A stretch of 64,000 bases of DNA from a virus, in the IMG/VR virus record IMGVR_UViG_3300030451_005868, positions 18,669 through 82,668 of that record; one strand, written 5' to 3'. The position numbers and the translations under genes are program-made. The notes beneath the pieces were generated by a model. It saw only the letters and a program-made list of their open reading frames with translations. It was not told the DNA's origin and ran no database searches. Shown here in pieces: positions 22,282 through 64,000 of this stretch; position 1 is the first letter of the stretch; each line of letters opens with the position of its first letter.

Positions 22282-24316
22282 TGTACCATTCTCCTATTAT
22301 TGGAAAAGTTTTTTCAAAACTCTTGCCTCTACGTGTATCGTATTGACTGTAGAAAACTTTAAAGTCTTTTTGTAATTTATCTTGTGTAGCCGCACCAGCG
22401 TGTGGAGTTTTAACCACATCCAAATAATCTATCAGCCTTTTTGTGTGTTCTATTTCCATGCCCTCTAACCATTTCTCATTATTAGTTAAGAACTTTTCAA
22501 TATCACCCTTAAATTTATTTCTAAGATCATCTGGTAGCACTAAAGGCGATTGAAAACTAGGAAACCTAAGTATATTCAACGTAAAGTTAATTGATCTTTT
22601 ATGATGTTTCATGCCTACAAGTATTTCTAAAAATTTTGATAATGACTCTAAACATAGTGCGTTAATTGTACACATATTATGGACACTGTTTGGCACTCCA
22701 GATAAAATTATATCATTTAAATTTTCGTACCAGTATTCAAAATCCATGCCATCCCTGATATATTCTGCCTGTTGAAATACTGATTCATTTGAGGTATATA
22801 AATCCACTGCATGAAAATTCCAAAGTTTTTTCTTAAATCTTTCTATTATTTCCTTTTTGGCACCAAGATTTGTGTTAATTGCTAGTCGCATATTTGGATT
22901 AATTTTATCACCTTGCGTTTCAATCCAATCTAAGAGACGCCATAAATTAGGAGACATCATTGGCTCTCCCCCAGTAATTCTTAATTCATCTAAAGTTTTA
23001 TGAAGATCACTTTCCCACCATTTGTAAAATGCCTCCACATATGGATTGGTTTCATCTTTTTTATATGGCTCTGCAGATTCATGACTATGAGTAAAATGAT
23101 TACGACCGTCTGATTGTAGTCCAGTATATGGTCCTTTTTGCTTGATGTCATTTGCCCAGGTTGTACTAAAAGCAGGATTACAATATGTGCAGGCAAATTG
23201 ACAAGTTCTGTCAAACGCAATTTCTAAAGTTTTCAAGTTGTGATTTGCTTGATGATTGGTTGCAAAAGCAGTATGCAAATCTTCATTAGTAAAAATTTTA
23301 CTTTTATATACTCTATCACTAATTGCATTACGACCCATGTCCTCAATTTTCCAACAATATTCGCAACCAGCAGGTCTTTCGCCGCACTGCATCTGCCTAC
23401 GCTGTTCTTTTTTTTGTTTGGTATTGTGTATTGCACTTGGGTTAGTTTTTATCTCTTCTAGATCAATTTTGTGTGGCAATGGATGATGACAACTTGTAGT
23501 CATACCTGAACCTAGCCATATAGTGGCATTATACCATTTGGCTCCGCAAAAACTTGCTGACTTTGTATCTAATACTTGTTTTTTATAATCTATATCATTC
23601 ATGGTATTTTGCACATGGTCATCTTTTTTAAATAATTTTTCAAACTTATCATTTGGCAAAAAATTTTCTGTCTTCAAAATAATGTTTTTTGCCCAATAGT
23701 ACTGTGCCAACCTAGATGCATCATGTTCACTTTGACTGTTTTTATTTGCATAATCTGTAGTGAATTCTTTTATTCCTTTCTTGCCATCATAAAAAATAAA
23801 CTTACTCCAATCAATTTCGTTGTATAATCTTTTTTCACTTATACTTGAGAATGTATTTCTTAACACATCTTTATGCTCAATCATCATTGTAAAACTAATG
23901 CTTTGACTAGTGAGAAATTGTTGTGTGCGTAAAATGTGTTCTAGTGTTCTATAATATTGTCTGTCTAAATTGAAAAAATGTTTATTATAAAACTCATGTT
24001 TCTCTTTCTGTGGGTGTTGTCCATAAGCAACCTTAAAATTAGTGTTTTGATCTTTAACAACTAATGATTCACTTCCTAAAACATAATCTTTTTGTACAAC
24101 TTCATATTTCTCTGGTCCAGTCCACATCACATAAAGATGACTTATTAAAGATCTTAATTCTAAAACGCTATCAATTACTTTCCTGCTGATTGTCTCATTA
24201 CTTGCATTTTTAAAAGAAAAGGTTTCATAGTCTTTTCCTTGTAATTCTGCCAAATACCTTGGCCATGACCAACCAGTATTTTTGTACCCACCCCATCCGT
24301 GACAAACTATTTTCAT
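22271..24316 (-). CDS. SGNH-like domain fused to radical SAM protein (D)
   Basis: 681 residues. Residues about 1-215 resemble the SGNH-like proteins of this window (SNETISRKV, YVMWTGPEKYE, HDASRLAQYYW) but the nucleophile region reads HGWGGYKN and the Asp-x-x-His block reads DASR, so Ser and His are absent and this domain is probably a binding, not catalytic, part. Residues about 250-681 are a radical SAM protein: auxiliary cysteines C257, C276, C318 and C321 (CEYCW), then CQFACTYC (C372, C376, C379) and RITGGEPMM. The radical SAM part is closest to the protein at 24313-25683. Overlaps both neighbours (ATGA with the latter). Confidence 0.8.
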   Translation of the reverse strand: MKIVCHGWGGYKNTGWSWPRYLAELQGKDYETFSFKNASNETISRKVIDSVLELRSLISHLYVMWTGPEKYEVVQKDYVLGSESLVVKDQNTNFKVAYGQHPQKEKHEFYNKHFFNLDRQYYRTLEHILRTQQFLTSQSISFTMMIEHKDVLRNTFSSISEKRLYNEIDWSKFIFYDGKKGIKEFTTDYANKNSQSEHDASRLAQYYWAKNIILKTENFLPNDKFEKLFKKDDHVQNTMNDIDYKKQVLDTKSASFCGAKWYNATIWLGSGMTTSCHHPLPHKIDLEEIKTNPSAIHNTKQKKEQRRQMQCGERPAGCEYCWKIEDMGRNAISDRVYKSKIFTNEDLHTAFATNHQANHNLKTLEIAFDRTCQFACTYCNPAFSTTWANDIKQKGPYTGLQSDGRNHFTHSHESAEPYKKDETNPYVEAFYKWWESDLHKTLDELRITGGEPMMSPNLWRLLDWIETQGDKINPNMRLAINTNLGAKKEIIERFKKKLWNFHAVDLYTSNESVFQQAEYIRDGMDFEYWYENLNDIILSGVPNSVHNMCTINALCLESLSKFLEILVGMKHHKRSINFTLNILRFPSFQSPLVLPDDLRNKFKGDIEKFLTNNEKWLEGMEIEHTKRLIDYLDVVKTPHAGAATQDKLQKDFKVFYSQYDTRRGKSFEKTFPIIGEWYNGI

Positions 24317-25683
24317 GCGTTTTTACACTCCTGCCAAAATTCTATCATTTCTGGAAATGTGTTTTGAAAATTAGTGTTGCGTCTGCGATCGTGTTCGTTA
24401 AAAAATGCGTAAAAGTTCTTTTTTAGCATAGCACTTGCGTTTGCGTTTTTTTTCCAGTAAGCAAGATTGCGAAGCATTTTTTGAATCTCAAAGTCCTTGA
24501 ACTTGTCAAACCCTTTGCCCTCTCCAGAATTTTGCCTCATGTATTCTATGTTGTCCTCGTGAATGCTCATATATGACTCAGGTAACAGAGTGATCTGTTG
24601 CCACACCGGTTGTCTCAACAGGGGCACATCAAACCACACACGTTGATACTCCTTGCTGTATTTCTGTCTAAGATCCAATATCTTTTCCAGTAGTTTGTCC
24701 ATGCTGGTTATACTGAGGTTGTTGTATGTGCAAATAAACGTTATGCTGTTTCTGTAGGGTATTCGGTACAGAAATTCCTCCACATTGTCCATCATGCGAT
24801 TGAAGTCCAGTCCGTTACGTATGTACTCAGCACGTTTGCCATAAGCATCCACACTCACAAACTGCATCACGTGTTCAACTTTTTTTTGCAGGCATATCTC
24901 CTGCAACATGTTGAAATATCTAGTTTTCAACTTCACATCCGGTGGACACATGTTGCTGGTGATGTTCAAATGCAGATCCTGTTTGGGATGATCTATTATG
25001 TATTGAAACACCTTGTATGTGTTTTTGTCCATCATGGGTTCACCTCCGGTCATACGAAAGTGTTTTAGATTTTTGTATAGGTCAGGCCACCACTTCCAGA
25101 ATGCTTCCACGTAAGGATTTGATTCACGTTGTGGTATGGGTCTCTTCCTGCCTTGAAAGTGTTCTGGAGCGTTGTGTGGTGGCGATGTGGGAAACTCACC
25201 GTAAAGGTCTGTTTCTTTGCCCCAGGCAGTGGAAAACTGTGGCGAACAGTAACTACACTTGAAATTACAAGCATGGTTAAAATTGACTTCCACGTACCTG
25301 GGAGTCCAACTTGTGGTCATTGGATTTTGTTTGATGGCCTCAAAGTCCTGCATGGCCCATGGTTCACCTGATCTATAATGTCTGTCTGACATTTCACCGG
25401 TGTCTTCCATTTTCCAGCAGTAGGAACATCCGTCTGGACGTTCGCCTTGTAGCATCTTGAATCTTTGATCTAGTTTTTCTGCGGTGTTGTGCAGTGCCGC
25501 AGGATTGGTTTTCACTGCTTCTGCATCTATTTCGTGCAAGGGAGGGTGATAACAACTGTTGGTCAAACCAGTGGGCAGATGGAAACTGACTTGATTCCAC
25601 TTGGCCAAACACATGGTAGGCGACACTTCCTGTAATTTTATCTGTGCCCGATGTGCATCTGCTTTATAATCACTGGTACTCAC
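24313..25683 (-). CDS. Radical SAM protein with N-terminal SPASM/twitch-like module (E)
   Basis: 456 residues; the GTG start at 25683 is supported by an AGGAG ribosome site nine bases upstream. Auxiliary cysteines C25, C44, C86 and C89 (CSYCW) precede CNFKCSYC (C139, C143, C146) and MTGGEPMMDK. The C-terminus (NFQNTFPEMIEF) matches the shared end of the group. Its DNA is visibly less A/T-rich than the genes at 18484-24316, hinting at a different origin. Closest relative in the window is the radical SAM half of the preceding fusion protein. Substrate unknown. Confidence 0.85.
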   Translation of the reverse strand: MSTSDYKADAHRAQIKLQEVSPTMCLAKWNQVSFHLPTGLTNSCYHPPLHEIDAEAVKTNPAALHNTAEKLDQRFKMLQGERPDGCSYCWKMEDTGEMSDRHYRSGEPWAMQDFEAIKQNPMTTSWTPRYVEVNFNHACNFKCSYCSPQFSTAWGKETDLYGEFPTSPPHNAPEHFQGRKRPIPQRESNPYVEAFWKWWPDLYKNLKHFRMTGGEPMMDKNTYKVFQYIIDHPKQDLHLNITSNMCPPDVKLKTRYFNMLQEICLQKKVEHVMQFVSVDAYGKRAEYIRNGLDFNRMMDNVEEFLYRIPYRNSITFICTYNNLSITSMDKLLEKILDLRQKYSKEYQRVWFDVPLLRQPVWQQITLLPESYMSIHEDNIEYMRQNSGEGKGFDKFKDFEIQKMLRNLAYWKKNANASAMLKKNFYAFFNEHDRRRNTNFQNTFPEMIEFWQECKNA

Positions 25684-35213: not shown

Positions 35214-35221
35214 TATTTATT
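35214..35221 (-). promoter_or_regulatory. Possible late-type box AATAAATA
   Basis: One mismatch to the T4 late consensus TATAAATA, on the minus strand and eight bases from the start at 35206. It overlaps the stop codon of the giant gene, so it may be chance. Confidence 0.2.
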
Positions 35222-38200
35222 CAGGTGCATTTGTCGGCTCATCCGCTATGAAACGAGCCTGAACTGTGCTTGATGCTTGTAAACCTTTACCATCTGCAGG
35301 ATTACCATCAGCCGCTGTATACCATACCTGTCCTCTCTTGTGTAGTATTTTGACCTGTGTATCTGCCGCTGGTGCTGTGCTTAATGTCACTGCCGCAGTC
35401 GATCCGTCCACAGAGTAGTTAATAGTTGATCCGTCTTCGCTAGTGAGCAACAATCGTTGGCCACCAATGAATATGTCTAACTCACTAGCAGAAGCGGGTG
35501 TTTGTGATAGATTAAACGTTGCAGTACTACCATCACCAGTAAATGTATTGGTGTATACTGTGTCCGTATAAGGTATAGTTTGAGTACCAGACGCATCTAC
35601 CACTGCTGTGCCTGAACTATGATCCTTAATTCCTGTACCAAGTGTGCCTCGTCTTAGTTGGCCTAAAGTGTCTCCTGACTTGGTAAAATATTCTATTCTT
35701 TCTTTATCAACAAAAATTACACCTGGTATGTTGTTGGCCGCATTTGGCTCCGGCAACACAGTTCCATCCTCAACTTGAATAACGATAGATTCGTCTGTTA
35801 CATCTTGTGCAATTTTTGTTGTGGCATTTTTGTTTATTCGTTTGTAAAAAGTTCTATTCAACATGTCTTTGAATATTCTAAAACCTGTTGCTCCAATTGC
35901 AGATTCAACCGCAAAATACATCACATCCAATCTGTCTGAAGATGTGATACTTGTTTTGTTCAACACAGTTAAAGTATTGCCTGACACTGTGAAGCCAGTA
36001 CCAGGAGTCAACTGTTCTCCATTGAACCATGCAAAAGTGTAACTTGGATTCAAGGTATCAAATCTCAGTTTGAATACATTATTAGTCTTGCCTTCCAATA
36101 CCTCCCTACGTAGTTTCATTCCCAAAGCATTATTAAATGTGGTGACATTTATCACATCACCACTGGATAAAGAATATCCATCTGAAGAAATTTGAGCAGG
36201 TTCTAGTATGACGTCTGTGCCATCAACTGTGTAATGATTATCAACTAATGTTGAAATTGCAATTAGGTCATTTTGTGCTGGTGCTGTAACAAATGAAATT
36301 CTGTCTGGAGATCCAGCCACATCTGTTGTGACTAAAGTAGTGTCCACTGTGTCAGTTTCATCAGCAGTCAGAATAGTGCCTGCAAGATCCACCACATAAT
36401 CTGTGTTCTGTACCTGTTTCACCCCATTGACATGCACAACAATTTGTGATGGATCTGTGATAGTCTTCACAGGATCAATTGTGCTGTCTTCACCTAATGT
36501 GTTTGTAAATGTTGAATCTTCTCCCAAACCTGTCAATGGATTGAATCCATATCTAGTGGTAGTGCCATCTCCAACATAGTAACTGATGTCAGGACCACGT
36601 AACATTTTTCCGCCCACTTCGATCATTGTCAAACCTGATAGAGGACCAATTGCTCCTGGAGGAAACGACAATGTGTATCTTGTTATGGCACTGTTAAATG
36701 TGATTAGTTCATTTCTAATACTTGCAAAACTTCTTGTGGACGTAGTTGATTTGTTGAAACCAGCGATCTGAACAAAAGCGTTTGCCGCTGGTGCACTGTC
36801 AAATGTAACTGTGATTGTGTTTGCAGTGGTTGTAGTTGAAAATAAAGTAGTTGGGCCTCCGTCAATGGTCACGTAGATGTCACTGGCAGTTGAATCCAAA
36901 TTAAATTCTCCTCTGGTGCTTGTGGTGAATGTGGTAGTTGATCCGTCACCTCGGTATTGGTCCAATACTCTGTAGTTTTCACCTGATACAGCAAAAGTTC
37001 TAACACTGATTGCTTTTCCTAGTCCTGGCGCACTTCCAAATGTGATTGTTTTGTCTCCAACATCAACTGTGTAGTCTGTGGTTAATCGTTTGACTGTGCC
37101 GTCTACAGAAACTGTTACTGATGCAAGAGATCCAGGGAAATCTCCTAATGCAAAAGTAGTAGTTACAGCATCTCCTGTATATAAATTTTCAGTTATAAAT
37201 GGAACTCCAGACTCTGGTGATGTATAAACTTTGATATCAACTGTGTCAAACATTTGGCCTGGTACAGCCTCTTCTGGTGCGTAACTTGTTTCTGGTGATA
37301 CAAATTGATCACCGTCGGTAAGTATATCACTGGCCGCTGTGCCTAATGCAGTGTTGAATAGGCCCCCTTTTAATAATGTATCAAGTGTTCTATCATCCGT
37401 TGGTGTCAGCACTCCGTCATCATCAATAGGAATAAACTCTACTAAAGCATTTTCGTCTGGAGTGGTGCTGAGTTGGAAACTGGTTGTGGAGCCATCTCCT
37501 CTAAACACATCTGACAGTTTAGTTCTTGTGCTATCGCCTAAAGTGGTGTATACAGAATATACATCTGACTTGGCAGGAGCAGTTGTGAAAGTATATGTGT
37601 TTGTAGAGCCATCTGCAATAAAGGCTTTGACACGTGTGTCACCAAAATTGTCCCATGGATAATCATACCAATCAGCGTTATCCCATCCTTGTCCTTGACG
37701 GAATAGTAATCCTGTAACCATTGTGCCACCGTAATCTACACCCGCCATTAGTTGGGATAATTCATTACCAGGCATACCTGAACCTGGTGTGTAGAATCCT
37801 GCTGTTCTGTCTGCGGCAGTTAGGCCTGTTTCGTCACCTCGTATTTTATAAACTTTGCCAATGTTGTCATTGAATTTAGTATTTGAAGTGAAATGATCTG
37901 TAGCCTTATACAATTCATTGTTGTATCTAATTAATTGTCCGTAAGCATAGGAAGTGTTTATGGCCCAATCTACCACAGCATGAACTGGATGAACTCTGTC
38001 AAACTTGATAGTGGTATCAATATCTCTCACAAGATCATTCTGTAAATTAGCATATGCTCTCGCAGTGTCACTTGGTGTGGTGCCATCATTTTTTCCGCCA
38101 GTAAGAACCACAGTAGGAGTTGTAGTATAATTTTTTCCGTTACTGACCAATGTAATTTTTGTTACTCGGCCGTCAACAACTGTGGCTGTGGCTGTGGCCG

Positions 38201-41200
38201 CTGTGGTATCAGGCGTTTCGTACATTTTATACACTGTGCTTCTTGAACTTTGACCTGTGTTTGTTGTTGCATCCGGCATCCAAAAAGTGCCTTCATATTC
38301 ATCAAAACTAAATTCTGTTGCAGTTCCGCTACCACCGTTGTTTTGCGTATCCCAAGTTTTTGCCAATCGTTCACTAGTAAACAATGGATAGTAATATCCA
38401 TAGGTGCCTGATGTTGCCCCTCTATTGCTGTTGCCTTGAATTTGGAATGGGCCAGTTGATGCTGTGGTTCCCCCAAGCACTGTAACTGTTGGCGCAGTTT
38501 CGTATCCTGTTCCGCTGTATGATACCGTAATTGATGTCACATATTTTTTATGATTATCGTACCAAATCTGATGAGGATATTCTGTTAACTTATCTGAATC
38601 AGAGGTTACATTTAGATTACGTATTTTACTTTCGGCTGAATCATAAAATGGTGGATTATCAAAATCAGAGAATATACCATCTTGGGTATCTGTTGACTCA
38701 TAACCTAGTTTGTATTCACGTATTTTTGAATGAAATGGCTTGACTTCGTTTATGTAACTTTCTACCCAACTGTCTGTGCCAGCCGTGTAACTCTTTCTTT
38801 GATCTAGTTTTCTAACTGTGTTTGTAACATTAATAAATGAAGTTTTAAACAACCAATCCACATATGTTTGTTCTTGTAAAACTTTTCTCAAACCTATGAA
38901 GAATAAATTGTTGTATTCTACTGCTAGTTCGTTTATAAACAAATCATCTCTTAGTGCTGTCAATATATTTCTAGTTTCTTTTGTTGGTTCCTGGTCAAAG
39001 AAATTATCATCAAAGTTATCTTCACCAGCAAATCCAGTTGCATCTTGCGTGTAGTCATATAATTTTGTGCTTAATCTAATAGTGCCATTCTCTGTTCCTA
39101 CGTTAGTATAACCTTTAGCAGTCTTCATAAACAGTTTCCAACCTCCTGTGTCACCCTGAGTAACTTTGACGTGCTTCCCAACTGCTAGGTCAAGTGAATC
39201 TAACTCATATTCATACGTTACCTGGGCATCAATAGGAGTATTCTCATCATGAATCATCTCATGTACCTCAGGATCAGTGCCATACCAGTCTACGTAACTC
39301 CAATATGCTCCTGTGTTGAAACCTTGTAATTTTGTTCTATTAAATTGTGTGCCATCCCATGTGTAGATTGACCAGAAATTGTTGGCTGTTTCGTCTGCTT
39401 TGACAAGATATTTCACAGCACCTGATAAGTCAGCAGTATTGATGTATGATAATTCTACATGTGTGTCTACAACGGCATCCCACTCGAGACTTGCCGCAGT
39501 TGGCTCAGGATCTGCCTTGTTAAGATTATCAAGTTTGATTGGTCCAGTCAATTGAATCTTTTTAAGAACTGTGTTAGAATAATCAATAATTTCTTTTAGT
39601 GCATTGTAACGATTCACGTACCAACTTTGTCTTGGGCGTATTTCATTTCCGTATCTTTCATTCAATGGCAAATTAATATCTGGAACCATGTCCCCTTCTA
39701 TATTTTTTCCAACTAAACTATCCCACCAGCGTTGTTCAACCTGTGTGCTTGGACGTTGAGCAGGATCTCCTTCTTTGACTAATTTCCAAACAGAATGTGC
39801 TGATGCATCACTGTTATTAGTTCTAATATCAATGTTAAGTTTGATTGTATCATTAGATAGGCCTCTAACATTTGCCAACAACATTTTGTTTGTATCTGTA
39901 GGTGCAAACCATTTGTGTCCTTGTCTCTGTGGATTTTCAATTAAATTTTTAACAAAAGCAACTGTGTTTTTTCTACCAACCACACTGTTGAGAGGTATAG
40001 CATTATCATCTCTTACCCAATAGTAGTAGTATCTAATGGTTCTATCAAGTCTGCCATTGTATCTGTCTTTGATAGTAAGATTGGAGTCGTCTGCATGTAA
40101 AGGAATTCCACCTGTGCCCAATTGTTGATACCTACTTGGAGGAACTGTTGATTCAACCCACTGATAAACATGTATCTGAGATCCAGGGAAAGTTTGTCCC
40201 CAATGATTTGTTTTGTATTCTTGGGTGTCTTGCTCATACCATAGCCACTTGACTTTGGATAGATCCCACCATACTTCACCAATATGTTTTTCTGCCCATG
40301 GGGTTTGTCTGTTAGCGTTGGCTCCAAAATTGTAAACTGCTGGATCCCATGTGGTTTTATATTGTATTTCTCTGTCTGCAATTCCTGGAATACGTCCTTG
40401 AACTGGATTATAAAGTTCATAAAAATCTCTGATCTGTTTGGTGTTTACATTAAAGTCAAATGTTTGTCCTAATTTTGAAACATCCATAAGTGGAGTTTCA
40501 GTTGTAATATTTTTCCAAGCATACTCACCTGATTTGTTCGCATCAAAAATTGTAACTGTTCCGTCATCCGCCACAAGTGAACTGCCGTCAGAGCCAACAT
40601 TACCTTCATCGTCAGGTGCACCTACAAACACACTATTATCAATTACGCACACGCCTCTGCCAAAATCGTCATTTGCAGATACACTAGTTGTGACTAATCT
40701 TTCATCTATAATAAATTTGGTATTGTATTTTGTGGCTGTGTATGCACCGCCTGAACCTGTATTTGAATCAACAAATCTAGTGTCCTGTAAATCGAAAGTT
40801 GTGGCGTCTAAATCAAACAACATCTGTCTGCTATTACCGTTGTTTTCAGCGCCTATCACTAGTCTTGTTGCATCATCGTTTATGTCAATTGAACTTCCAA
40901 ACTTGTTGTTAATCTGTCCGTCAGGAGCATTAATTGTTTGTTGTAATGTATATGCCAGTGTACTGTCACCGTCTGCGTCCCATTTATAATAATAAACTGC
41001 TCCAGCATCTGCTTGGTTGCCAACATCTAAACCAGGAGCCGTGATCATTAGTGTTGTGCCATCCTTGCTCATTGCTATACTGTCACCAAACTGTGTGTTC
41101 ACTGACGATCCATCACTGGATACAGCAGAAAGTGTTTGCACCAGAGTAAAACTGTGATCAACACTGTCGTCGTTGCTCTGAGAAGTTCTTGTAAATATTT

Positions 41201-44200
41201 CTACCATACCTGCCTTGCCAGGTGCTTTTGAACTTACTGCCAGTATGTCTCCGTTGTCGTTGGCCGCTAATGCATGACCAAATCTTTTATTACTGGCTGG
41301 ATCATCTGAACTGATTGTTAAGTTTTGTGTCCATGTGTCGTACGTAGATCCATCAGATCCTACACCCCATTCATACATGTACACTGCTCCAGTGTCTGTG
41401 GATATACCTGGTGCAGACACAAACAAATATTTCACAGGAGTGCTTCTAATAGAATCTATTGTTGGCTCACATATTTTGTGTGCCCATCCAAAATTTTGAC
41501 TTGCTTCATCTGTGGGTGGTAATAATGTGTTAAGTGCTGAATATGTAAAACGAGTAGGATCCCAAACAAAAATTTCAATAAGGCCTGCATCAGCAAATCT
41601 TGTGCTACCATCAGAGCCTATGCTGTTGGCAAAAGGCGCACCTGCTACCACAAAGTTTTCATCTGTACTCATAGTCAGACTGTAACCAAGTCTACCTGTG
41701 TTGTCATTACCAGCAGTTGTGGTCACTGTGGACTGTGTCTGAAATTCAGTGCCAGCGGATGCAGTACGCCTGAATAAAAAGTGTATTTCGCCTTGGCCTT
41801 TTTTAGGAGCAGAAACCACTGCTGTCCTTCCGTCGTTTCTAGCAACTATTTGTGTGCCAAAATCTTGTTGCGTTGTAGTAGTATCTGGTGAAAGTTGTCT
41901 AAACACACTGTAGGCGTTTTGTTTTTCGTATACTCTCCATAGTCCTGTACTGTCTGCATCAGTGAATACTTTGTCTCCGGGAGTATCTAATGCATCATTC
42001 CTATTACGCCAAACATTGTAGGCAATGTTGTCATTGACATTGTCCATTGAATCCATTCTTACAGAAATAAATTTGTATAAACTACCGTATAGATCTGCAG
42101 TGGACTCGTCAGCAAGAGTAGGCACGCCAGCAAGATCTCCATCAAAATCAATAATAACTGACTTGTGATTCACAACAGTTTTGACTTTATATACACCGTT
42201 AAGGTCTGGAATCTGAGCGTTGATTATTGCAAAGAAACTGGCTTCGGTTCTGTTAGTCTGCGCTGACAATCCATGAGAATCATTGAACGTTATAATTATT
42301 TCTAAATTATCATTTATTTTTTGCACAGTTACAATCTGAACTCCTGCACTTGATAGCCGCAATACGTCCCAATCTTTATTTGATTTGTTTGCCACCCAGA
42401 CCAGATCATTCCGTGTAATTGTGCTCACATCTAAATTCACTAAGTCAATTTCGTTAAATGCAGTCAGTTGCACTTGCGCTGGTTGAACATATCCTGCAGT
42501 TTTTAATTTTTGTACAGAGTCTCTGCTAACACCTTGTGTGTCATAATTGTATTTGCTGAAAGTGGTTGCAGTATCATAATCAACTGGATCATGATAAAAA
42601 TCTGTTTTGCTAATACCTAAACTTCTAGCGTAATCTTTTGTAAAATTTGTAGTGCCGTAAAATTCTAAACTTTGTGGATTTGCTAAGATTTCATTTTCAT
42701 TTAGAGTAATTTGAATATTTTCTCTGGCATCAACATTTCCAAATCTTCCTGTTCTAATCATCCACTCGGGATACATGTTCAAGGTAATATCTTGATCTTC
42801 GTATTTGGCTTTTAACAATTTATCAATTGCATTCTGCGTGCCTTTTTCTCTGATATAACCTTGATAAAATTTATACTGTGATACATCATTTACAAATAAA
42901 TTTTCTAAATAATCTCTGCTTTGATAACCAATAAGTCTTTGTGCAAGTTCTTGCTGAGACTCGTCAAAATTATTTGTTTCTAAATTATAAAAGTCGTTAA
43001 ACTGCTGTATCTTGTAATCAAAATTTGGTATCAATTGTGGTTGAGGTTTTTCATCCTTCAATGTCCAATTACTTGCTTCGAATTGATCTGTGCTGGTGTG
43101 ATTGCTTTTGGCCACATAAAACTTACCAGAATATTCAACAGTGTCTCCAATTTTGTAATCTTTGTTGCGTGACCAGTATTTTACTTCTGCACTATCAAAT
43201 ACAAATCCAGGAGCGTAGTAATCACCATTCCAATTTGACGTTTTCCATCCAACTAATTTCAATCTTTCTTGTCTAAAGCCTGTGTAAGGATCATATATCA
43301 CATCACTAAACACAGTTTTGTTATCAAATAGTAATAAATGTTCTTTCTGAACTGTGTTCAGAGATATATTATATAAACCAACGTCAGGCGATTTAATGTT
43401 GAGATCAAATGTTTTTCCTATACGCTTAGTTGATACTTCTCTAATGTCAAGTTTTCTGCCTCCAGCATCCAACATAGAATAATCGCCGGCAATGTTTTTC
43501 AGCCTGCCTACAATAGTGTTGTTGGTGTCAAGTTCAAAACCATCAGCGGCCGGAGACACTGTAACTGCACTTCCTGGCGCCCAATTCTGTTCGGTCCAGT
43601 ATAAAAATTCACTGACTGCGTTTCTCCAATTCAGTGTTTCTTTAATTTCTTTGCTGTATTTGTTGAAACGAAATCCCTGTTGTTCTAAATAATACCCATG
43701 CCCTAACAAGAAGTCAGCCACATCCTGTCTAGTTTCAAACACATATCCATACGGAATAGTTTGCACATCTTGTTGATAGTTGTCGTACACAGCCACTTCT
43801 GCATCAATTACACTAACTTTTTTCGCTGTCAACGTTTTAATAGGATAATTGAATTTGAAGAATGGTTTAGTAGTTGAATAACCTAAAATTTTATAACCGC
43901 CTAACAATGTTGATCCGTCGCTGGATACGTCTGTGTTTTTTTCTATTAAAACACCTGAATAATCAAATGTTTCCACAGGATTGGAAGTTCTAAATAAAAT
44001 TTTGTAGTTCTCATCTGGAATAAATTTTGAGCCTGAAGTTGAACCAGGTGACACTGAATCTGTCAAGACTTTTAAATTGTCTTTGTCTGAAAAGCCTCCC
44101 AACTTGTATGCCAACTGTGTTTTTAGTCCTTTACACTTGTCATAAAAGAATGTTTTTGGATCTAAATTTTGCGATGTTAGATATCCAACCACTAGAGGTT

Positions 44201-47200
44201 GATATCCCGCAGTTGCATATCTGGTCACTGTGCCTGTTGTGTTGTCAGTTTCAGTCTCAAGATGGTACTTGGCTTTAGCGAGATTTTGTCTTACACCTGT
44301 GTCTTTATCTATGTAATTGTTGGCAGTGTTTAAAGTTAATCTACTGTTATCAAAAAATACTGAGAAAAATTTAGCAGGTTTTGTTAAGGCCAAAGTTTTT
44401 ACGACAGTATACGGATAAGCACTGGATCTACGCCAGGCTGTTTCTGCCGGTGCTTGATCACCAAATTTCCAACTTGATCTTCGACCAGGCACATCATAAT
44501 CTTCAACAAGTCCAGCCGCTATAGGATCTAACAGATTTCCTGATGTATCAACTGGCAAATAATTTTTTATATCAGGTTTTCCATATCTACCAGATTCGTT
44601 TGCTATCGCACTCCACAACACATCATTGCCTGCTGTGTATGGTGCGGCACCATACGTGCTGTCCCAGTCACTTGGTTTTTCACTGTGACCCAAAATCTCC
44701 CATGGACGTAAATGCGGAGCATCTGTGTCGTAAAAATATTGATATATGCCTCTCCAATACCCTGGCAGTTTTTCATTATTGAGTCTGTCAGTGGAGTTGC
44801 TGTAATTGTAAGTGAAAGGCGAACCTTCTGTGAACACAGTGTTGTTGATGTATTGCACATTGTTTCTACCTGCCCATACATAAAAGTCAGTGGCCATTAT
44901 GTCATCTATTTCACTTCTAGTGAATTCTGTTGACGTAAATGCACTTGGTTTAACATCGTTGATGTCTAATATGGAAGCGTCATAGGCAGTTTTACAGTTG
45001 TTGTAAATTCTTTTTTCTAATTCAAGAATTAAATCATCTCTTTCATCGCCATATGCTTTTATAATAGATCCATCATGCCTTCTAATCACATCGGTGGTTG
45101 TCAAATAAGTGTCATCAGAAAATAATTCTGGTTTGAATTTAGGATACATTCCTAATTTAGTAGGAGTAGGTGGAATAAAACTGCCAGTTGTGTCTGCATA
45201 GTCTTTGATAATAATTTTGTCTCCGTCTGTCAATGTGGCTGATATGTTAATACTATCGTCTGTGGTACTAAACGTGTAATCGTTGCCTTCAAGCAGTTGG
45301 ACGTCGTTAAGATAAACATACACAGCACGGTTGCTAAGTTCAGTGAGACTATGCTGTTTGTCAATTGCATACTCTGTTTCTAAATCATCACGCACAGTGT
45401 ATGTTCTTGTCGAAACATTTTCTCCATATCCTGCCATGTCTTCATAATAAAAAGGTGAACCAGAATTTTGTCCTTCACTAATTGCTGAAATTATTTCATC
45501 AACCCTATCACGCACGACTCCTTCATATGCAGTGCCTAGTGCTTTGGTTAAAAAACTGCTATACCATTGCTCATATTTTTTACTAGTGTATTCAATTGAT
45601 CTGATCACATTGGCTTTTTGATCAATTAAACCAAAAACGGCTGGCAACAATGATCCTTGATGTTGTAATATTTTTCCGCCTTTTAATCTTGCTTCTGGTT
45701 TGTCTCTTAGATTTGACACACCAGGCACAACCCCTGTTACATCTGAATTTTTGTCTTGAATATCTTGCACATGTTTGGAAATTTGTCCAAGAGTAAATGT
45801 GCCTAGTTGTGTATTTTCAGCATTGATTTCCAAGTTACTTGCAATTTCATAAATGCCTTTTGTATCAACCTTGTCTTCAGCACTATATCCACTCAGTCGA
45901 ATTTGATCTCCCACTTCTAATTCGTCCACAAATCTTACAAATTTGTTTACAGTTCCATCAACAATAGTAAAGTCAGTATCAATACTTTTGTTTACACCGT
46001 TCACTTTGACCGAAATGTCTAGATCAGAAATGTCAATACTGTTGGCATAAAAATCAATTGGAAACAATCTTTTTTCAACACTTGTGGCTTCGAATGTTCT
46101 AATCACTCTCTGTTTACTTTCCGCCAAGCGTTCTATCCATGCACTTCGAGAATTATGTGATGTCAGGCTAGTTGTATAATGCAAGTGCCCTTCGGCCAAA
46201 CTTTTTGTTACAGTTTTTTTATCGCTTTTATAAGTGAATGTGCCATTGGTATGGTCACTGTCAAACACAATGTCTCCCACATTGTTGATAGTTTGATACT
46301 TAACTTTGATGCCAAGGACAGTATCTTCTGTTGCACTGTCACTTGTGGCATATTCAAAAACTTTTGCACCAGCGAATGAACTGTTTGGATAAGTTGTTGC
46401 ATCATCAAAACTCACATGATTGTTATCCCACATGCCAAACAAAGGTTGTTGATTGACTTGAGATTTGTGTTGTGCTTCTTTCCAAGATGTACTAGAACTA
46501 TCATAGTAAAAAGTTTTTCCAATATTTTTTGTGCCAAATTCTACAAAAACTGAGTCTCCGTCGGCTGGTGTACCGTCTGTGGCCTTTGTCAGTGCAATCA
46601 CCTTACTACTGTCAGAGGCAGTGATAAAATTAACCACATAAATGTTGTTCTTGACAAGATTATCTGTGTCAGCCGTGAATATTACTCTGTCTCCTTCTTC
46701 CAATTCAATACCATCAACTGTGTATCCTGTCTGGTTAACCACTGTACTAAAAGCATCTGTGGTCACTGTGTCTATCACTTTCAAAGGATCTTTGGCCACT
46801 GTGCCATGATTGTAAAGTGCTAGGCCAGAGTCAAATTCTATGATTGGTCTCTTTGCTCTATCTGTTTCGTTTAGGTTTGCAGTGTATCCTTCAATCCGTG
46901 CTACTTCTTCTATAATTGATCTATGAAACCATCTGTTGTATCTTGACCACGCATTCCTATCGATAGAATCTCGCTTGATTGTGATGTAATCTAGTGTTTC
47001 AGGTCTGTGTAAGGCTTTAGCATAAGGCTGTTGATCAAATAGAAAACTATCATAACCAACTGTAAATTCTTCAGCGTAACTTCCAGGGTTGATTAATTTG
47101 CTAACATCTGTGAGAGTAATTTTGTCTCCCACACCTTCCACATAATATTCTTTGTTTTGATATTCGGTATCAACTTTTGCATTGGCAAATTTAATTTTCA

Positions 47201-48152
47201 TTCCATTTGATAAATCCAGTGTTCTTAGGCTATAATTTGTTGCTCCAATAATTTCTTTATCTGGCTTAATTTTATCAGTGCTCTGTACTGTGGCAATTTC
47301 CAATGATCCGTTCATGGCATCATGCACACCACATTGATAAAATAAGAAGTTAGGGCCAGTAGTGGGCACAGTAAAGGTCACAGTTCCATAATCTGTTCCG
47401 TTGTTGGTAACTCCTGTGTCGTATATTGTTGACGTTGATCCATCTGCTGAAATCTTGTCTTTGTAAGGTTCAGTCATAATCCAAAAAGGATGACCTTTTG
47501 CGTCTACATTAAATTTGTATGTGTTACCTCTATACAGTTTCAATATTGGATTATTAGTCCCGTCTTGCACACTGAAATTGTATGCTCCTTTAACCACATT
47601 GGTAACTTTTATTTCGATTGTGGCACCAGGTCCAACTGAGTCAATTTCTAAAGCACTAGGCCCTTCTGGCAACCAATAGTATTCTCTGTAATTGATAAGT
47701 TTATCATAATCAATAGCAGGATTCCAACTGTAAACTTTTGCCTTGTTAAGTCTATCATGATTGTTAGTTTTTCCACCAAAGTATTTGATTTGATTAATGT
47801 AATCGTCATAGGTGCCTGTAAATTCAACTTGATCTTCTGGATTGATAGAAGTTGTATCATTCAAAGAATAAGTGACAGCAGGCTCTAACTGATATGCCAA
47901 TCTATCTCTACTTGTCGCTGATAGGTATTTGTCCGACGCCTTTCTAGTGTATGCATCTTGTTTTCCAATAAATGCATCAAGTCTCTCCAAAGATCCTTTT
48001 TGCATCAAAGCATCCATAGTGCTCGCTAAGAATCGTTCATTAGCGTCTGTTCTATAAAATGCTGGTAGATGTTGAACAGTTCTACGTAGTTCCGCAGTGC
48101 CCTGTGTTACAACTTCCTGATTTGTTAGTGAATTAGTGGGTGCGTCTGCCAT
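35217..48152 (-). CDS. Giant 4311-residue baseplate/tail-fibre structural protein
   Basis: Very large single open frame with no internal break, starting at a TAATG junction with gp6. N-terminal part (LPAFYRTDANERFLAST, EYYWLPEG) looks like the large virion proteins of T4-like marine phages that follow gp6, in the place of T4 gp7 (1032 residues), though four times as long. Recognisable inserts: a cupredoxin-like domain at about 195-290 (H221, C274, H277, M280); a seven-blade FG-GAP-type propeller at about 2090-2540; and C-terminal repeats of GDGSTTTF-type beta domains at about 3500-4270. Thr/Asp/Tyr-rich elsewhere. Functional position near the baseplate is inferred from order; receptor or host-surface binding is likely. 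Confidence 0.8.
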   Translation of the reverse strand: MADAPTNSLTNQEVVTQGTAELRRTVQHLPAFYRTDANERFLASTMDALMQKGSLERLDAFIGKQDAYTRKASDKYLSATSRDRLAYQLEPAVTYSLNDTTSINPEDQVEFTGTYDDYINQIKYFGGKTNNHDRLNKAKVYSWNPAIDYDKLINYREYYWLPEGPSALEIDSVGPGATIEIKVTNVVKGAYNFSVQDGTNNPILKLYRGNTYKFNVDAKGHPFWIMTEPYKDKISADGSTSTIYDTGVTNNGTDYGTVTFTVPTTGPNFLFYQCGVHDAMNGSLEIATVQSTDKIKPDKEIIGATNYSLRTLDLSNGMKIKFANAKVDTEYQNKEYYVEGVGDKITLTDVSKLINPGSYAEEFTVGYDSFLFDQQPYAKALHRPETLDYITIKRDSIDRNAWSRYNRWFHRSIIEEVARIEGYTANLNETDRAKRPIIEFDSGLALYNHGTVAKDPLKVIDTVTTDAFSTVVNQTGYTVDGIELEEGDRVIFTADTDNLVKNNIYVVNFITASDSSKVIALTKATDGTPADGDSVFVEFGTKNIGKTFYYDSSSTSWKEAQHKSQVNQQPLFGMWDNNHVSFDDATTYPNSSFAGAKVFEYATSDSATEDTVLGIKVKYQTINNVGDIVFDSDHTNGTFTYKSDKKTVTKSLAEGHLHYTTSLTSHNSRSAWIERLAESKQRVIRTFEATSVEKRLFPIDFYANSIDISDLDISVKVNGVNKSIDTDFTIVDGTVNKFVRFVDELEVGDQIRLSGYSAEDKVDTKGIYEIASNLEINAENTQLGTFTLGQISKHVQDIQDKNSDVTGVVPGVSNLRDKPEARLKGGKILQHQGSLLPAVFGLIDQKANVIRSIEYTSKKYEQWYSSFLTKALGTAYEGVVRDRVDEIISAISEGQNSGSPFYYEDMAGYGENVSTRTYTVRDDLETEYAIDKQHSLTELSNRAVYVYLNDVQLLEGNDYTFSTTDDSINISATLTDGDKIIIKDYADTTGSFIPPTPTKLGMYPKFKPELFSDDTYLTTTDVIRRHDGSIIKAYGDERDDLILELEKRIYNNCKTAYDASILDINDVKPSAFTSTEFTRSEIDDIMATDFYVWAGRNNVQYINNTVFTEGSPFTYNYSNSTDRLNNEKLPGYWRGIYQYFYDTDAPHLRPWEILGHSEKPSDWDSTYGAAPYTAGNDVLWSAIANESGRYGKPDIKNYLPVDTSGNLLDPIAAGLVEDYDVPGRRSSWKFGDQAPAETAWRRSSAYPYTVVKTLALTKPAKFFSVFFDNSRLTLNTANNYIDKDTGVRQNLAKAKYHLETETDNTTGTVTRYATAGYQPLVVGYLTSQNLDPKTFFYDKCKGLKTQLAYKLGGFSDKDNLKVLTDSVSPGSTSGSKFIPDENYKILFRTSNPVETFDYSGVLIEKNTDVSSDGSTLLGGYKILGYSTTKPFFKFNYPIKTLTAKKVSVIDAEVAVYDNYQQDVQTIPYGYVFETRQDVADFLLGHGYYLEQQGFRFNKYSKEIKETLNWRNAVSEFLYWTEQNWAPGSAVTVSPAADGFELDTNNTIVGRLKNIAGDYSMLDAGGRKLDIREVSTKRIGKTFDLNIKSPDVGLYNISLNTVQKEHLLLFDNKTVFSDVIYDPYTGFRQERLKLVGWKTSNWNGDYYAPGFVFDSAEVKYWSRNKDYKIGDTVEYSGKFYVAKSNHTSTDQFEASNWTLKDEKPQPQLIPNFDYKIQQFNDFYNLETNNFDESQQELAQRLIGYQSRDYLENLFVNDVSQYKFYQGYIREKGTQNAIDKLLKAKYEDQDITLNMYPEWMIRTGRFGNVDARENIQITLNENEILANPQSLEFYGTTNFTKDYARSLGISKTDFYHDPVDYDTATTFSKYNYDTQGVSRDSVQKLKTAGYVQPAQVQLTAFNEIDLVNLDVSTITRNDLVWVANKSNKDWDVLRLSSAGVQIVTVQKINDNLEIIITFNDSHGLSAQTNRTEASFFAIINAQIPDLNGVYKVKTVVNHKSVIIDFDGDLAGVPTLADESTADLYGSLYKFISVRMDSMDNVNDNIAYNVWRNRNDALDTPGDKVFTDADSTGLWRVYEKQNAYSVFRQLSPDTTTTQQDFGTQIVARNDGRTAVVSAPKKGQGEIHFLFRRTASAGTEFQTQSTVTTTAGNDNTGRLGYSLTMSTDENFVVAGAPFANSIGSDGSTRFADAGLIEIFVWDPTRFTYSALNTLLPPTDEASQNFGWAHKICEPTIDSIRSTPVKYLFVSAPGISTDTGAVYMYEWGVGSDGSTYDTWTQNLTISSDDPASNKRFGHALAANDNGDILAVSSKAPGKAGMVEIFTRTSQSNDDSVDHSFTLVQTLSAVSSDGSSVNTQFGDSIAMSKDGTTLMITAPGLDVGNQADAGAVYYYKWDADGDSTLAYTLQQTINAPDGQINNKFGSSIDINDDATRLVIGAENNGNSRQMLFDLDATTFDLQDTRFVDSNTGSGGAYTATKYNTKFIIDERLVTTSVSANDDFGRGVCVIDNSVFVGAPDDEGNVGSDGSSLVADDGTVTIFDANKSGEYAWKNITTETPLMDVSKLGQTFDFNVNTKQIRDFYELYNPVQGRIPGIADREIQYKTTWDPAVYNFGANANRQTPWAEKHIGEVWWDLSKVKWLWYEQDTQEYKTNHWGQTFPGSQIHVYQWVESTVPPSRYQQLGTGGIPLHADDSNLTIKDRYNGRLDRTIRYYYYWVRDDNAIPLNSVVGRKNTVAFVKNLIENPQRQGHKWFAPTDTNKMLLANVRGLSNDTIKLNIDIRTNNSDASAHSVWKLVKEGDPAQRPSTQVEQRWWDSLVGKNIEGDMVPDINLPLNERYGNEIRPRQSWYVNRYNALKEIIDYSNTVLKKIQLTGPIKLDNLNKADPEPTAASLEWDAVVDTHVELSYINTADLSGAVKYLVKADETANNFWSIYTWDGTQFNRTKLQGFNTGAYWSYVDWYGTDPEVHEMIHDENTPIDAQVTYEYELDSLDLAVGKHVKVTQGDTGGWKLFMKTAKGYTNVGTENGTIRLSTKLYDYTQDATGFAGEDNFDDNFFDQEPTKETRNILTALRDDLFINELAVEYNNLFFIGLRKVLQEQTYVDWLFKTSFINVTNTVRKLDQRKSYTAGTDSWVESYINEVKPFHSKIREYKLGYESTDTQDGIFSDFDNPPFYDSAESKIRNLNVTSDSDKLTEYPHQIWYDNHKKYVTSITVSYSGTGYETAPTVTVLGGTTASTGPFQIQGNSNRGATSGTYGYYYPLFTSERLAKTWDTQNNGGSGTATEFSFDEYEGTFWMPDATTNTGQSSRSTVYKMYETPDTTAATATATVVDGRVTKITLVSNGKNYTTTPTVVLTGGKNDGTTPSDTARAYANLQNDLVRDIDTTIKFDRVHPVHAVVDWAINTSYAYGQLIRYNNELYKATDHFTSNTKFNDNIGKVYKIRGDETGLTAADRTAGFYTPGSGMPGNELSQLMAGVDYGGTMVTGLLFRQGQGWDNADWYDYPWDNFGDTRVKAFIADGSTNTYTFTTAPAKSDVYSVYTTLGDSTRTKLSDVFRGDGSTTSFQLSTTPDENALVEFIPIDDDGVLTPTDDRTLDTLLKGGLFNTALGTAASDILTDGDQFVSPETSYAPEEAVPGQMFDTVDIKVYTSPESGVPFITENLYTGDAVTTTFALGDFPGSLASVTVSVDGTVKRLTTDYTVDVGDKTITFGSAPGLGKAISVRTFAVSGENYRVLDQYRGDGSTTTFTTSTRGEFNLDSTASDIYVTIDGGPTTLFSTTTTANTITVTFDSAPAANAFVQIAGFNKSTTSTRSFASIRNELITFNSAITRYTLSFPPGAIGPLSGLTMIEVGGKMLRGPDISYYVGDGTTTRYGFNPLTGLGEDSTFTNTLGEDSTIDPVKTITDPSQIVVHVNGVKQVQNTDYVVDLAGTILTADETDTVDTTLVTTDVAGSPDRISFVTAPAQNDLIAISTLVDNHYTVDGTDVILEPAQISSDGYSLSSGDVINVTTFNNALGMKLRREVLEGKTNNVFKLRFDTLNPSYTFAWFNGEQLTPGTGFTVSGNTLTVLNKTSITSSDRLDVMYFAVESAIGATGFRIFKDMLNRTFYKRINKNATTKIAQDVTDESIVIQVEDGTVLPEPNAANNIPGVIFVDKERIEYFTKSGDTLGQLRRGTLGTGIKDHSSGTAVVDASGTQTIPYTDTVYTNTFTGDGSTATFNLSQTPASASELDIFIGGQRLLLTSEDGSTINYSVDGSTAAVTLSTAPAADTQVKILHKRGQVWYTAADGNPADGKGLQASSTVQARFIADEPTNAPE
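35340..37630 (-). repeat. About six tandem beta-domain repeats in the giant protein
   Basis: Residues about 3500-4270 carry repeated units of roughly 80-100 residues: GDGSTTSFQL, GDAVTTTFAL, GDGSTTTFTT, GDGTTTRYGF and GDGSTATFNL near each start, and a closing strand such as ITFGSAPG or ISFVTAPAQND. They resemble the immunoglobulin-like or beta-sandwich repeats common in tail fibres. Confidence 0.65.
40533..41885 (-). repeat. Seven FG-GAP-type repeats, probable beta-propeller
   Basis: Seven units with the FG-GAP pattern: QDFGTQIV, GRLGYSLT, QNFGWAHK, KRFGHALA, TQFGDSIA, NKFGSSID and DDFGRGVC, each followed by a strand such as VVSAP, VVAGAP or LMITAPG and a YxYxW- or IFxW-like strand. Seven blades fit a closed propeller. 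Confidence 0.75.
47283..47570 (-). other. Cupredoxin-like domain in the giant protein
   Basis: Encodes residues about 195-290. KLYRGNTYKFNV and KGHPFW give H221; FYQCGVHDAMNG gives C274, H277 and M280. Cys, two His and Met in this order are the type 1 copper ligands of plastocyanin-like proteins. Confidence 0.65.
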
Positions 48153-62262: not shown

Positions 62263-62457
62263 ATGTCTAACACACACGAACAGATCATGACAGAGATTCA
62301 AGCATACTCTGAAGAGAACGGTAAGTTCACAGAGAAAGGTGTCAAGGCTTCTGCAACAAGAGCCAGAAAAGCACTTGCTAATCTTTCTAAATTGATCAAA
62401 GCAAGAAGAAAAGAAATTCAAGAGGCAAAAAACGCGGCATCAACGCCGGCGGCATAA
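62263..62457 (+). CDS. Hc1-like small DNA-binding protein
   Basis: 64 residues. GVKASATRARKALANLSKLIKARRKEIQEAKN is the pattern of histone H1-like Hc1 proteins found in T4-like marine phages and in Chlamydia. The basic helix (ATRARKAL) would bind DNA and the protein probably compacts phage or host DNA. Own promoter and very good ribosome site; a terminator follows 22 bases after the stop. Suggests high, separate expression. Confidence 0.75.
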   Translation: MSNTHEQIMTEIQAYSEENGKFTEKGVKASATRARKALANLSKLIKARRKEIQEAKNAASTPAA

Positions 62458-62478: not shown

Positions 62479-62511
62479 AGCCTCTACTTTCGAGTAGAGG
62501 CTTTTTCTTTT
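62479..62511 (+). terminator. Intrinsic terminator with UUCG tetraloop
   Basis: Perfect 10-bp stem AGCCTCTACT / AGTAGAGGCT (62479-62488 and 62493-62502) with loop TTCG, then a T-run (TTTTCTTTT). Closes the gp55-gp47-gp46-Hc1 side. The stop codon of the converging GIY-YIG gene is at 62484-62486, inside the stem. Confidence 0.93.
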
Positions 62512-62906
62512 AATATACCTTTGCCATGAACACGCACACGAATGTGTCCGTTGTAGTACTGATTTGATTCTAAAACCTTACGAGCAAACTGCTCTCTGGC
62601 CTCCACATAACTTAATTCTGCTTTGGAGTAACAGTAAAAAAGTATTTCTCTGGTAAAATTTTGTTTGCCAATTTTTTTGATGTCCAAAGAAAGTTCGTCA
62701 CTGCTTCCGTAATAGTCTCGCCAGTCCGAATCCACTTTGTATCTTCTTTTGTTTTTTCTCCCTTTCAGTGGTGGACGTGATCTTTTGAATCTGGCTAATT
62801 TTTTACCAATATACATCCTACCATTAGTAACATTGGTTATTTGATACACAAAACCTACCACGTCTTCTGGTAATTCATTCACAGTTTTTTGTTGAAAAGT
62901 CCACAT
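62484..62906 (-). CDS. GIY-YIG nuclease-like protein
   Basis: 140 residues from the ATG at 62906. GFVYQITNVTNGRMYIGKK is the GIY-YIG core (in the form VYQI ... MYIG), followed by DYYGSSDELSLDIKKIG, REILFYC, AELSYVEARE with the acidic metal residue. Such proteins in T4-like phages are free-standing homing endonucleases (Seg family) or repair-type nucleases; there is no extra DNA-binding domain beyond about 110 residues. It lies against the Hc1 terminator and just left of the structured RNA. TTTAAATA at 62913-62920 on its strand could be a late-type start. Confidence 0.75.
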   Translation of the reverse strand: MWTFQQKTVNELPEDVVGFVYQITNVTNGRMYIGKKLARFKRSRPPLKGRKNKRRYKVDSDWRDYYGSSDELSLDIKKIGKQNFTREILFYCYSKAELSYVEAREQFARKVLESNQYYNGHIRVRVHGKGILKEKASTRK

Positions 62907-62930
62907 TGACAATATTTAAATCCAAAAAGA

Positions 62931-62957
62931 TTGACCTTCAAATAAAACTCATATAAA
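62931..62957 (+). promoter_or_regulatory. Possible promoter of the structured RNA
   Basis: TTGACC at 62931-62936 and TATAAA at 62952-62957, spacer 15 (short). TATAAACA also resembles the T4 late box with one mismatch. Would start transcription near 62964, with no reading frame after it until 63394. Confidence 0.45.
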
Positions 62958-62963
62958 CAAGTG

Positions 62964-63374
62964 TGATAGGCACACAAACAATTCTTTATAATTCACACAG
63001 GCAAACATAGCATCCAAGTAGTGAGCACGGAAATGCGGCTGAAATGCGACAGGTGAATCCGTTGATGCAAAAGGCAAAATGATGAGGCTCTGAGAAACAG
63101 CAACCTCAGGTCTACCAAAAATTATCATGCAAAGATTTGGTAGGCTCGCGTTGGATGAATAAGCGAATGGGTACAGCACAACCGCCCAGTTACGACAGCG
63201 TTGCATGGTGACTGTGATACTCGCCACAGTGGGTACAAGTCAGTTCGGCTAGAAATAGCCGAATTGTGACTGCTCATCTGCCACAGTAGGCGCTAAAATT
63301 TAAAATTGCGTTTGCGTAAATTAAAAAAGAAACGAGCGTAAGCGAAGTTTCAGATGGTTGTAAACCATCTTTTC
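62964..63374 (+). ncRNA. Structured RNA of unknown family, about 400 bases
   Basis: No plausible gene occupies 62907-63393. Complementary arms seen by eye: GCATC 63010-63014 with GATGC 63064-63068; ACGGA 63027-63031 with TCCGT 63058-63062; TGAGG 63083-63087 with CCTCA 63104-63108 enclosing CTG/CAG; CTACCAAA 63112-63119 with TTTGGTAG 63136-63143; ACTGTG 63211-63216 with CACAGT 63225-63230; TTCGGCTA 63244-63251 with TAGCCGAA 63256-63263 around a GAAA tetraloop, extended by AGTCA/TGACT; GAAAC 63329-63333 with GTTTC 63347-63351. The 3' end is a terminator-type hairpin. It is either a free RNA or a long leader (riboswitch-like) of the gene at 63394. I cannot match it to RNase P, tmRNA or a group I intron. 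Confidence 0.6.
63352..63374 (+). terminator. Terminator hairpin at the RNA 3' end
   Basis: AGATGGTT 63352-63359 and AACCATCT 63363-63370 around a 3-base loop, followed by TTTTC. Perfect 8-bp stem with a short T-run, 20 bases before the next ATG, so it could act as an attenuator. Confidence 0.65.
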
Positions 63375-63393
63375 ATTGACCTTAAGTAACAGT

Positions 63394-64000
63394 ATGAAAA
63401 CGTTTGTGTACGGAGATTCTTTCAGCAATCATGCATGGTGTCAATGTCCGCAGGATCGCATGTGGTATGCACAATTGGTTCGGGGTGAACTGATTGATCG
63501 CACACGTGTGAGTGCCAGCACACAGGAGATGTTTCTGCTGGCCACCACAGACGCCGTGTCTAACCCCACAGCACGTTTTATTCTGGGCACCGGAGTGATG
63601 TATTCTCGCATGATGTTGTACACAGATCAACTGTACGCCGACGAACAGCGTCCCGACAGCATAGACTCGTGCCTACAGCATTTTGACACACAGCAGTTGG
63701 ACCGAGCACTGCACGTGGGCATATATCATCACACCCTGGTTTGGAGTCAGTATCTGGCCAATGTGATCAGTTTTGGCAGTGTGGCACAGGGACAACAGTG
63801 GTTGATCACTCACATGAACGCACCTGCCAACGAACACATCGCTGTCACACACCCGCTGATACAGCCGTTGCTGAAACGCACCATGTCCATGCCCGGATAC
63901 ATCGATCATCGTCACTCGTGCAGACACCTGTGTGAACAGGCCGGGATACTGCCGCATGATCATGCACAGTACGGTTGGGACGGTCATCACTCTGAGGCGG
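63394..64000 (+). CDS. SGNH-hydrolase-like protein, runs off the right edge
   Basis: At least 202 residues with no stop in the window. The N-terminus MKTFVYGDSFSNHAWC has block I (GDSFS, Ser9), RFILGTGVMYSRMMLY is the strand also seen in the other SGNH proteins, and DGHHS near the visible end gives Asp/His of block V. Base composition is visibly higher in G and C than in all neighbours (CAC, CTG, GCC and CGT codons). Ribosome site is weak. Just downstream of the terminator hairpin of the structured RNA. Substrate unknown. Confidence 0.75.
   Translation, partial: MKTFVYGDSFSNHAWCQCPQDRMWYAQLVRGELIDRTRVSASTQEMFLLATTDAVSNPTARFILGTGVMYSRMMLYTDQLYADEQRPDSIDSCLQHFDTQQLDRALHVGIYHHTLVWSQYLANVISFGSVAQGQQWLITHMNAPANEHIAVTHPLIQPLLKRTMSMPGYIDHRHSCRHLCEQAGILPHDHAQYGWDGHHSEA

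Follow-up and report, generated by a model that had tools for sequence, protein, structure and literature searches.

The locus downstream of gp46

The window, by which we mean the whole 64,000-nt stretch analysed (positions 18,669 to 82,668 of IMG/VR record IMGVR_UViG_3300030451_005868), comes from an 82,668-base viral contig whose end is the window's last base. Positions 62913-63393 hold neither a gene nor an annotated RNA. Upstream lie gp47-like and gp46-like genes (metallophosphatase, AAA/SMC), a gene for an Hc1 histone-like protein and a gene for a SegE-type GIY-YIG endonuclease; downstream, an SGNH-like gene begins at 63394. The Hc1 gene (62263-62457), which encodes a small histone-H1-like protein and lies between gp46 and the gap, is conserved in many relatives too.

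The first-pass annotation had called this gap a highly structured, gene-free region, and comparison with relatives bears this out: the arms that it named exist, and sequence comparison confirms that the window encodes at about 62964-63374 a structured noncoding RNA with no protein product (Table 1). Conservation extends from about 62996 to 63370, at roughly 70-80% identity in closer relatives, and stops at about 63370-63399 depending on the relative, i.e. short of the downstream gene or where that gene starts; similarity ceases at or shortly past the last hairpin. A conserved open frame, which the annotation had named as grounds for rejection, was looked for, and the 92-aa antisense frame of the window carries stops in 23 of 25 relatives, so that the reading frame is not conserved.

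Table 1. Features of the RNA locus in window coordinates
Feature	Position	Strand	Basis or remark
SegE-type GIY-YIG endonuclease gene, constant neighbour	62484..62912	-	Pfam PF19835 1.7e-36; synteny
Sigma70-type promoter, TTGACC (62931-62936) and TATAAA (62952-62957)	62931..62957	+	15-nt spacer
Structured noncoding RNA, about 410 nt	62964..63374	+	start inferred from promoter, end from last conserved hairpin
5' domain, window type: P1 (63010-63014/63064-63068) around P2 (63027-63031/63058-63062) and P2a	63010..63068	+	
P3/P3a hairpin with GGCUCUG..AACC motif	63083..63108	+	compensatory changes in 4 of 7 pairs
P4, hairpin of variable sequence	63109..63146	+	compensatory changes in 11 of 13 pairs
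Pseudoknot, CGUUG (63149-63153) with CAA-CG (63179-63184, P5 loop)	63149..63184	+	partner covariation
P5 with near-invariant core motif GGGUACAGCACAACCGCCC (63169-63187)	63168..63188	+	motif scans, alignment
Twin loop, copy 1: GCCACAGU	63223..63230	+	identical to copy 2, changes in concert
P7, GAAA-loop hairpin between twin loops	63241..63266	+	11 pairs, 4 with compensatory changes
Twin loop, copy 2: GCCACAGU	63280..63287	+	identical to copy 1, changes in concert
P8, hairpin GAAAC-GAGCGUAAGCGAA-GUUUC	63329..63351	+	kept in nearly all close relatives
P9, terminal hairpin and T-tract	63352..63374	+	compensatory changes; terminator-like in window

The plus strand of 62958-63380 folds at -124.6 kcal/mol, compared with -104.7 ± 5.2 for shuffled sequences (z -3.85). 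Since the minus strand of the region reaches a similar z of -3.72, energy alone cannot choose the strand; the plus strand was chosen on the promoter, the synteny and G-U-tolerant pair counts. The promoter boxes, whose coordinates in the first-pass annotation were exact, precede the core motif by about 230-260 nt, a near-constant distance in the window's clade across which the spacer sequence drifts. In that clade they are supported, by sequence only, as the RNA's own early promoter. In other branches the nuclease gene is on the same strand as the RNA, and where no obvious promoter of its own is present the RNA may be transcribed together with the nuclease gene. At the other end of the gap, many relatives conserve a TTAAGTA directly ahead of the start codon of the next gene (63376-63393 in the window), which is perhaps a late-promoter or initiation element.

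Distribution among large phages

With gp46 as query, 80 loci at 56-86% identity were retrieved, 22 of them on contigs that end too early for the RNA to be judged. It is present at all 58 judgeable loci (at least 2.5 kb of downstream sequence), usually 0.9-2.4 kb past gp46, and the order gp47-gp46, nuclease, RNA holds in each of these 58 contigs. The core motif accounts for 54 of the detections and a covariance model for three (L065, L074 and L081); the remaining one (L076) is an HMM match identical to that of L074. The synteny is maintained even in very divergent branches. The nuclease slot upstream of the RNA, examined in the window (62484-62912) and at L090, L099, L112, L187 and L195, holds a GIY-YIG gene in the majority of branches; in others its occupant is a gene for a RusA-like Holliday junction resolvase (PHROG 244).

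A scan with the motif GGGTACAGCNNNACCGCCC returned at least 120 stretches, adding very divergent members and a handful of chance matches, and three pattern scans that included the pseudoknot returned at least 120, at least 120 and 85. Overall the scans yielded more than 400 stretches of environmental contigs, which overlap in part; phages larger than 150 kb contribute many of these stretches. Judging by these sequence matches, hundreds of large bacteriophages, most of them uncultivated, carry relatives of the RNA. Twelve contigs of 159-345 kb have one or two motif matches each, one match being chance-like: the second one in contig G385 (L543) is without twin loops and beside coding sequence. 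A 235-kb contig (G382) carries two copies of the RNA (L541 and L542), from different branches. Nucleotide search of 50,697 phage records found no relative of the window RNA or of three divergent members. A cellular origin was considered and rejected, the only genuine matches in genome contigs being phage-like contigs in metagenome bins.

A covariance model built on the RNA core was searched in cultured phage genomes, and it matched the Agrobacterium jumbo phage Atu_ph07 at 490117-490289 on the minus strand (E 5e-5). The core pattern occurs twice in this genome, at 490121 and 383321, with zero hits for backward-pattern controls. It occurs in none of nine other phages (PA5oct-like PAC2, Phosso, SCTP-2, HTVC008M, phiM12, P10VF, P-SSM2, XbC2 and T4), and the covariance model had no match in those of the nine that were tested with it. 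Both Atu_ph07 copies (L221 and L222) fall in unannotated gene-free gaps of MF403008.1, 382155-384353 and 489782-490380 running into 1-243; no nuclease gene adjoins the RNA there. On visual inspection, the pseudoknot, hairpin P7 and twin loops are recognisable in both, as is a flanking helix that differs between the copies and pairs in each (CGAGAAU/AUUCUCG and CGACA-AU/AUGUCG). The terms intergenic, noncoding and transcriptome are absent from the Atu_ph07 genome paper (PMC6102473).

Helices and pseudoknot

Covariation, which the first-pass annotation had named as the check on its arms, was assessed in 26 aligned relatives on a consensus fold of 67 pairs, pseudoknot included. Base-pair cells are paired in 98.5% of cases. 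Compensatory changes occur in 32 of the 67 pairs; shuffling gives 18.9 such pairs, and sliding the partner strand leaves 5-8. The shuffle tests ignore relatedness, counting related sequences as independent, and the slid-partner control is therefore the safer one. Covarying structure without a conserved frame, the pattern of a trans-acting noncoding RNA, is thus what the window has.

In the 5' domain, compensatory changes are present in P1 and P2 among these relatives; divergent branches swap this domain for other 5' domains, RF01718 among them. The GGCUCUG..AACC motif of P3/P3a is retained in most divergent members. The loop of P5 pairs with an upstream CGUYR element, and this pseudoknot, like the twin loops, goes beyond what the first-pass annotation described. 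Among 63 distinct core sequences, all from loci not fetched by a pseudoknot pattern, there are 18 partner combinations, including CGUUGU/ACAACCG, CGUCAG/CUGACCG, CGUUAU/AUAACCG and CGUCGU/ACGACCG, and none of 5000 shuffles reaches the observed pairing. A long-range GCGUU/ACGC pairing proposed by RNAalifold was dropped: it is invariant or varies by wobble only, is missing in divergent branches and clashes with the pseudoknot.

Two of the hairpins named earlier needed revision. The GAAA hairpin, P7, had been drawn as a 13-bp stem at 63238-63271; the hairpin stands, with 11 contiguous pairs (63241-63251/63256-63266). The supposed terminator, P9, is a conserved hairpin with compensatory changes (63352-63370), followed by TTTTC in the window, but the T-tract is not conserved and many relatives have CTGACA at that place, so the label of intrinsic terminator is safe for the window only. 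P8 covaries little because it varies little.

Twin loops

Either side of P7, typically after ACUC and after AUCU, stand two loops of 6-9 nt that are nearly identical within each RNA and change together between phages. The shared word is GCCACAG in the window and elsewhere ACCACAG, AGUACA, AGCACAU, ACUACAA, AGAUAAU, GGAUAAU, AGAUGAU, GUGUCAAGU, GGUCAAGU and others. Over 248 distinct RNAs, the longest shared twin word averages 7.1 nt within an RNA versus 5.4 nt across RNAs; in a cleaner subset, loop identity is 6.1 of 7 positions versus 3.5 of 7 when shuffled. Where one phage has two copies of the RNA, the duplicated word differs from copy to copy: AUGAAU and CGCAU in Atu_ph07, ACGAAAU and GACA in G382 (read by eye, CGCAU and GACA being short).

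The loops do not seem to pair within their own RNA, in which internal complements are not enriched (1.68 for its own loops versus 1.72 for those of other RNAs), and no convincing target was found elsewhere in the phage. CTGTGGC, the complement of the twin word, occurs 10 times on the plus strand of the window; these sites, mostly antisense to minus-strand genes, were rejected as a target signal. The twin word itself is about twofold commoner in its own contig (1.9 per 10 kb versus 0.9 in others, codon usage not being controlled).

From their sequence behaviour, the chances seem evenly balanced that the twin loops are partner-binding sites; that they form a specificity element particular to each RNA is a more tentative proposal. 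A partner specific to the RNA would be likelier than one phage-wide protein, given that loop sequence differs between the two RNA copies of a single phage.

Relation to Polynucleobacter-1 and other known RNAs

The window RNA matches no Rfam family at gathering score, and at E values up to 5 the only hit is U1 (E 2.4), rejected as a chance match; a search for tRNA and tmRNA in the region found none. The first-pass annotation's failure to assign a family thus holds for the window, but not for the 5' third of its divergent relatives. In 15 of 32 divergent loci scanned, this third is RF01718 (Polynucleobacter-1, 141 nt), on the same strand and directly before P3. These 15 loci share the same 3' core and the gp46-nuclease-RNA order, which makes the window RNA homologous to the RNAs that bear RF01718. 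The RF01718 model finds nothing in the window, whether at gathering (37 bits) or with E relaxed to 5; in the window's branch the 5' domain is a different one, and we therefore do not file the window as a member. None of the conserved 3' domain, the core motif, the pseudoknot and the twin loops is part of RF01718. It had no matches in 369 genomes of one class, where the control was likewise empty. The 2010 catalogue scored Polynucleobacter-1 as 'y' for RNA, 'y' for cis-regulatory and '?' for switch, from Burkholderiales and fresh water/estuary samples (PMC2864571). The shared core and order suggest that Polynucleobacter-1 is a fragment, the 5' domain in one part, of a larger trans-acting phage RNA family. 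The orphan Rfam entry would be explained in this way and its cis-regulatory label questioned.

In size class, folding and phage life, the RNA appears by analogy to work most like GOLLD and ROOL, which are also large structured RNAs of phages or prophages with pseudoknots and undefined function. It is a member of neither, the GOLLD and ROOL Rfam models having no match in the window or in the divergent loci scanned. It is about 410 nt long, compared with 600-800 nt for GOLLD and ROOL, and stands beside gp46 and a nuclease gene whereas they stand beside tRNA islands; we know of no description of twin loops for either. HEARO and omega RNAs and group I and II introns resemble it as structured RNAs beside a homing-type nuclease gene. 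Unlike them, it has no adjoining RNA-guided nuclease, interrupts no gene and shows fixed synteny rather than mobility. Rfam models of group I and group II introns have no match in the window, where the flanks are complete unrelated genes, and HEARO and OMEGA RNA are likewise without an Rfam match, the neighbours being GIY-YIG or RusA-like and not of the IscB/TnpB type.

Nature of the RNA

The first-pass annotation had left a choice between a free noncoding RNA and a very long leader of the SGNH-like gene. Covariation, promoter, synteny and the lack of a conserved frame argue for the free RNA, which is very probably a standalone, trans-acting one. A cis-acting, riboswitch-like leader controlling the next gene would fit the plus-strand gene that follows 20-300 nt past the RNA in the window and several branches, as well as the catalogue's listing of RF01718 as probably cis-regulatory. 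We hold it to be quite improbable, for the constant genes are the upstream gp47-gp46 and nuclease genes, while those downstream vary and are not homologous between branches; no conserved co-oriented downstream gene was found. Of the 29 inspected loci with a gene downstream, 17 have the first such gene convergent, often preceding a minus-strand baseplate-hub gene, and for the SGNH-like protein no relative turned up among viral contigs. A DNA element such as an origin or recombination site, rather than an RNA, is extremely improbable. Its place beside the recombination genes gp46 and gp47 and an antisense fold almost as stable would suit it, but a conserved promoter points into the region, the hairpin loops and pseudoknot show RNA-type G-U variation, and UACG, GAAA and GCAA tetraloop families are exchanged at P5a.

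Alternatively, the RNA might form multimers in the manner of the GOLLD and ROOL nanocages, the twin loops serving as assembly contacts. It shares with GOLLD a conserved 3' and a variable 5' part (PMC12286853), and some twin words contain palindromes, for instance CAUG or ACGU. Against this, most twin words are not self-complementary, complements are not enriched in the same RNA, and the molecule is about half the size of GOLLD and unrelated to it in Rfam; we regard multimers as rather unlikely. Very improbable, in our estimate, is an RNA belonging to a mobile element with the neighbouring nuclease, whether intron-like, HEARO-like or an endonuclease guide. A GIY-YIG or RusA-like gene does adjoin the RNA in most loci, but inheritance is vertical and syntenic and presence uniform rather than patchy, the nuclease changes type and lies on either strand or, in Atu_ph07, is missing, and Rfam has no intron or HEARO match.

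The best explanation of the whole, which we consider likely, is that a large group of T4-like and jumbo phages has as a core component a structured RNA, about 410 nt long, that stands alone and acts in trans. We infer that this RNA would be transcribed early by the host sigma70 polymerase and fold compactly into a scaffold whose 3' domain is conserved and whose 5' domain is interchangeable, acting as an RNP or RNA complex. The twin loops, held around P7, would duplicate a single recognition site, with which the RNA would grip the same external partner twice. That partner would more probably be specific to each RNA, either a dedicated protein or a nucleic acid, RNA or DNA, that base-pairs with the loops. 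The twin words would be reset independently in each RNA, even between copies in one phage, with the scaffold kept constant. As to its role, a guess would be a scaffold or guide supporting phage replication or host takeover.

A stronger reading, in which the specificity element of a phage RNA machine is both duplicated and resettable and Polynucleobacter-1 is only the machine's 5' fragment in one branch, is possible but doubtful; if true, this would be a previously unrecognised class of phage RNA machine. To our knowledge, few large structured phage RNAs are known and no ornate one has a proven function. Two loops evolving as near-identical copies are an unusual evolutionary signature, one that points to a specific partner, and the presence of the RNA in Atu_ph07, a cultured phage with a laboratory host, makes its function testable.

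We also note two peculiarities elsewhere in the window. (i) A single open frame of 4311 aa lies among the tail genes (35217-48152); Atu_ph07 and AP-J-162 are reported to have giant structural proteins of similar size (PMC11242549). (ii) A run of proteins with radical-SAM-like CxxxCxxC-type starts (LCHLPW..CCLYKG, FCMAPW..CC, FCMLPW..CC) is encoded at 18484-25683, possibly a peptide- or glycan-modifying cluster.
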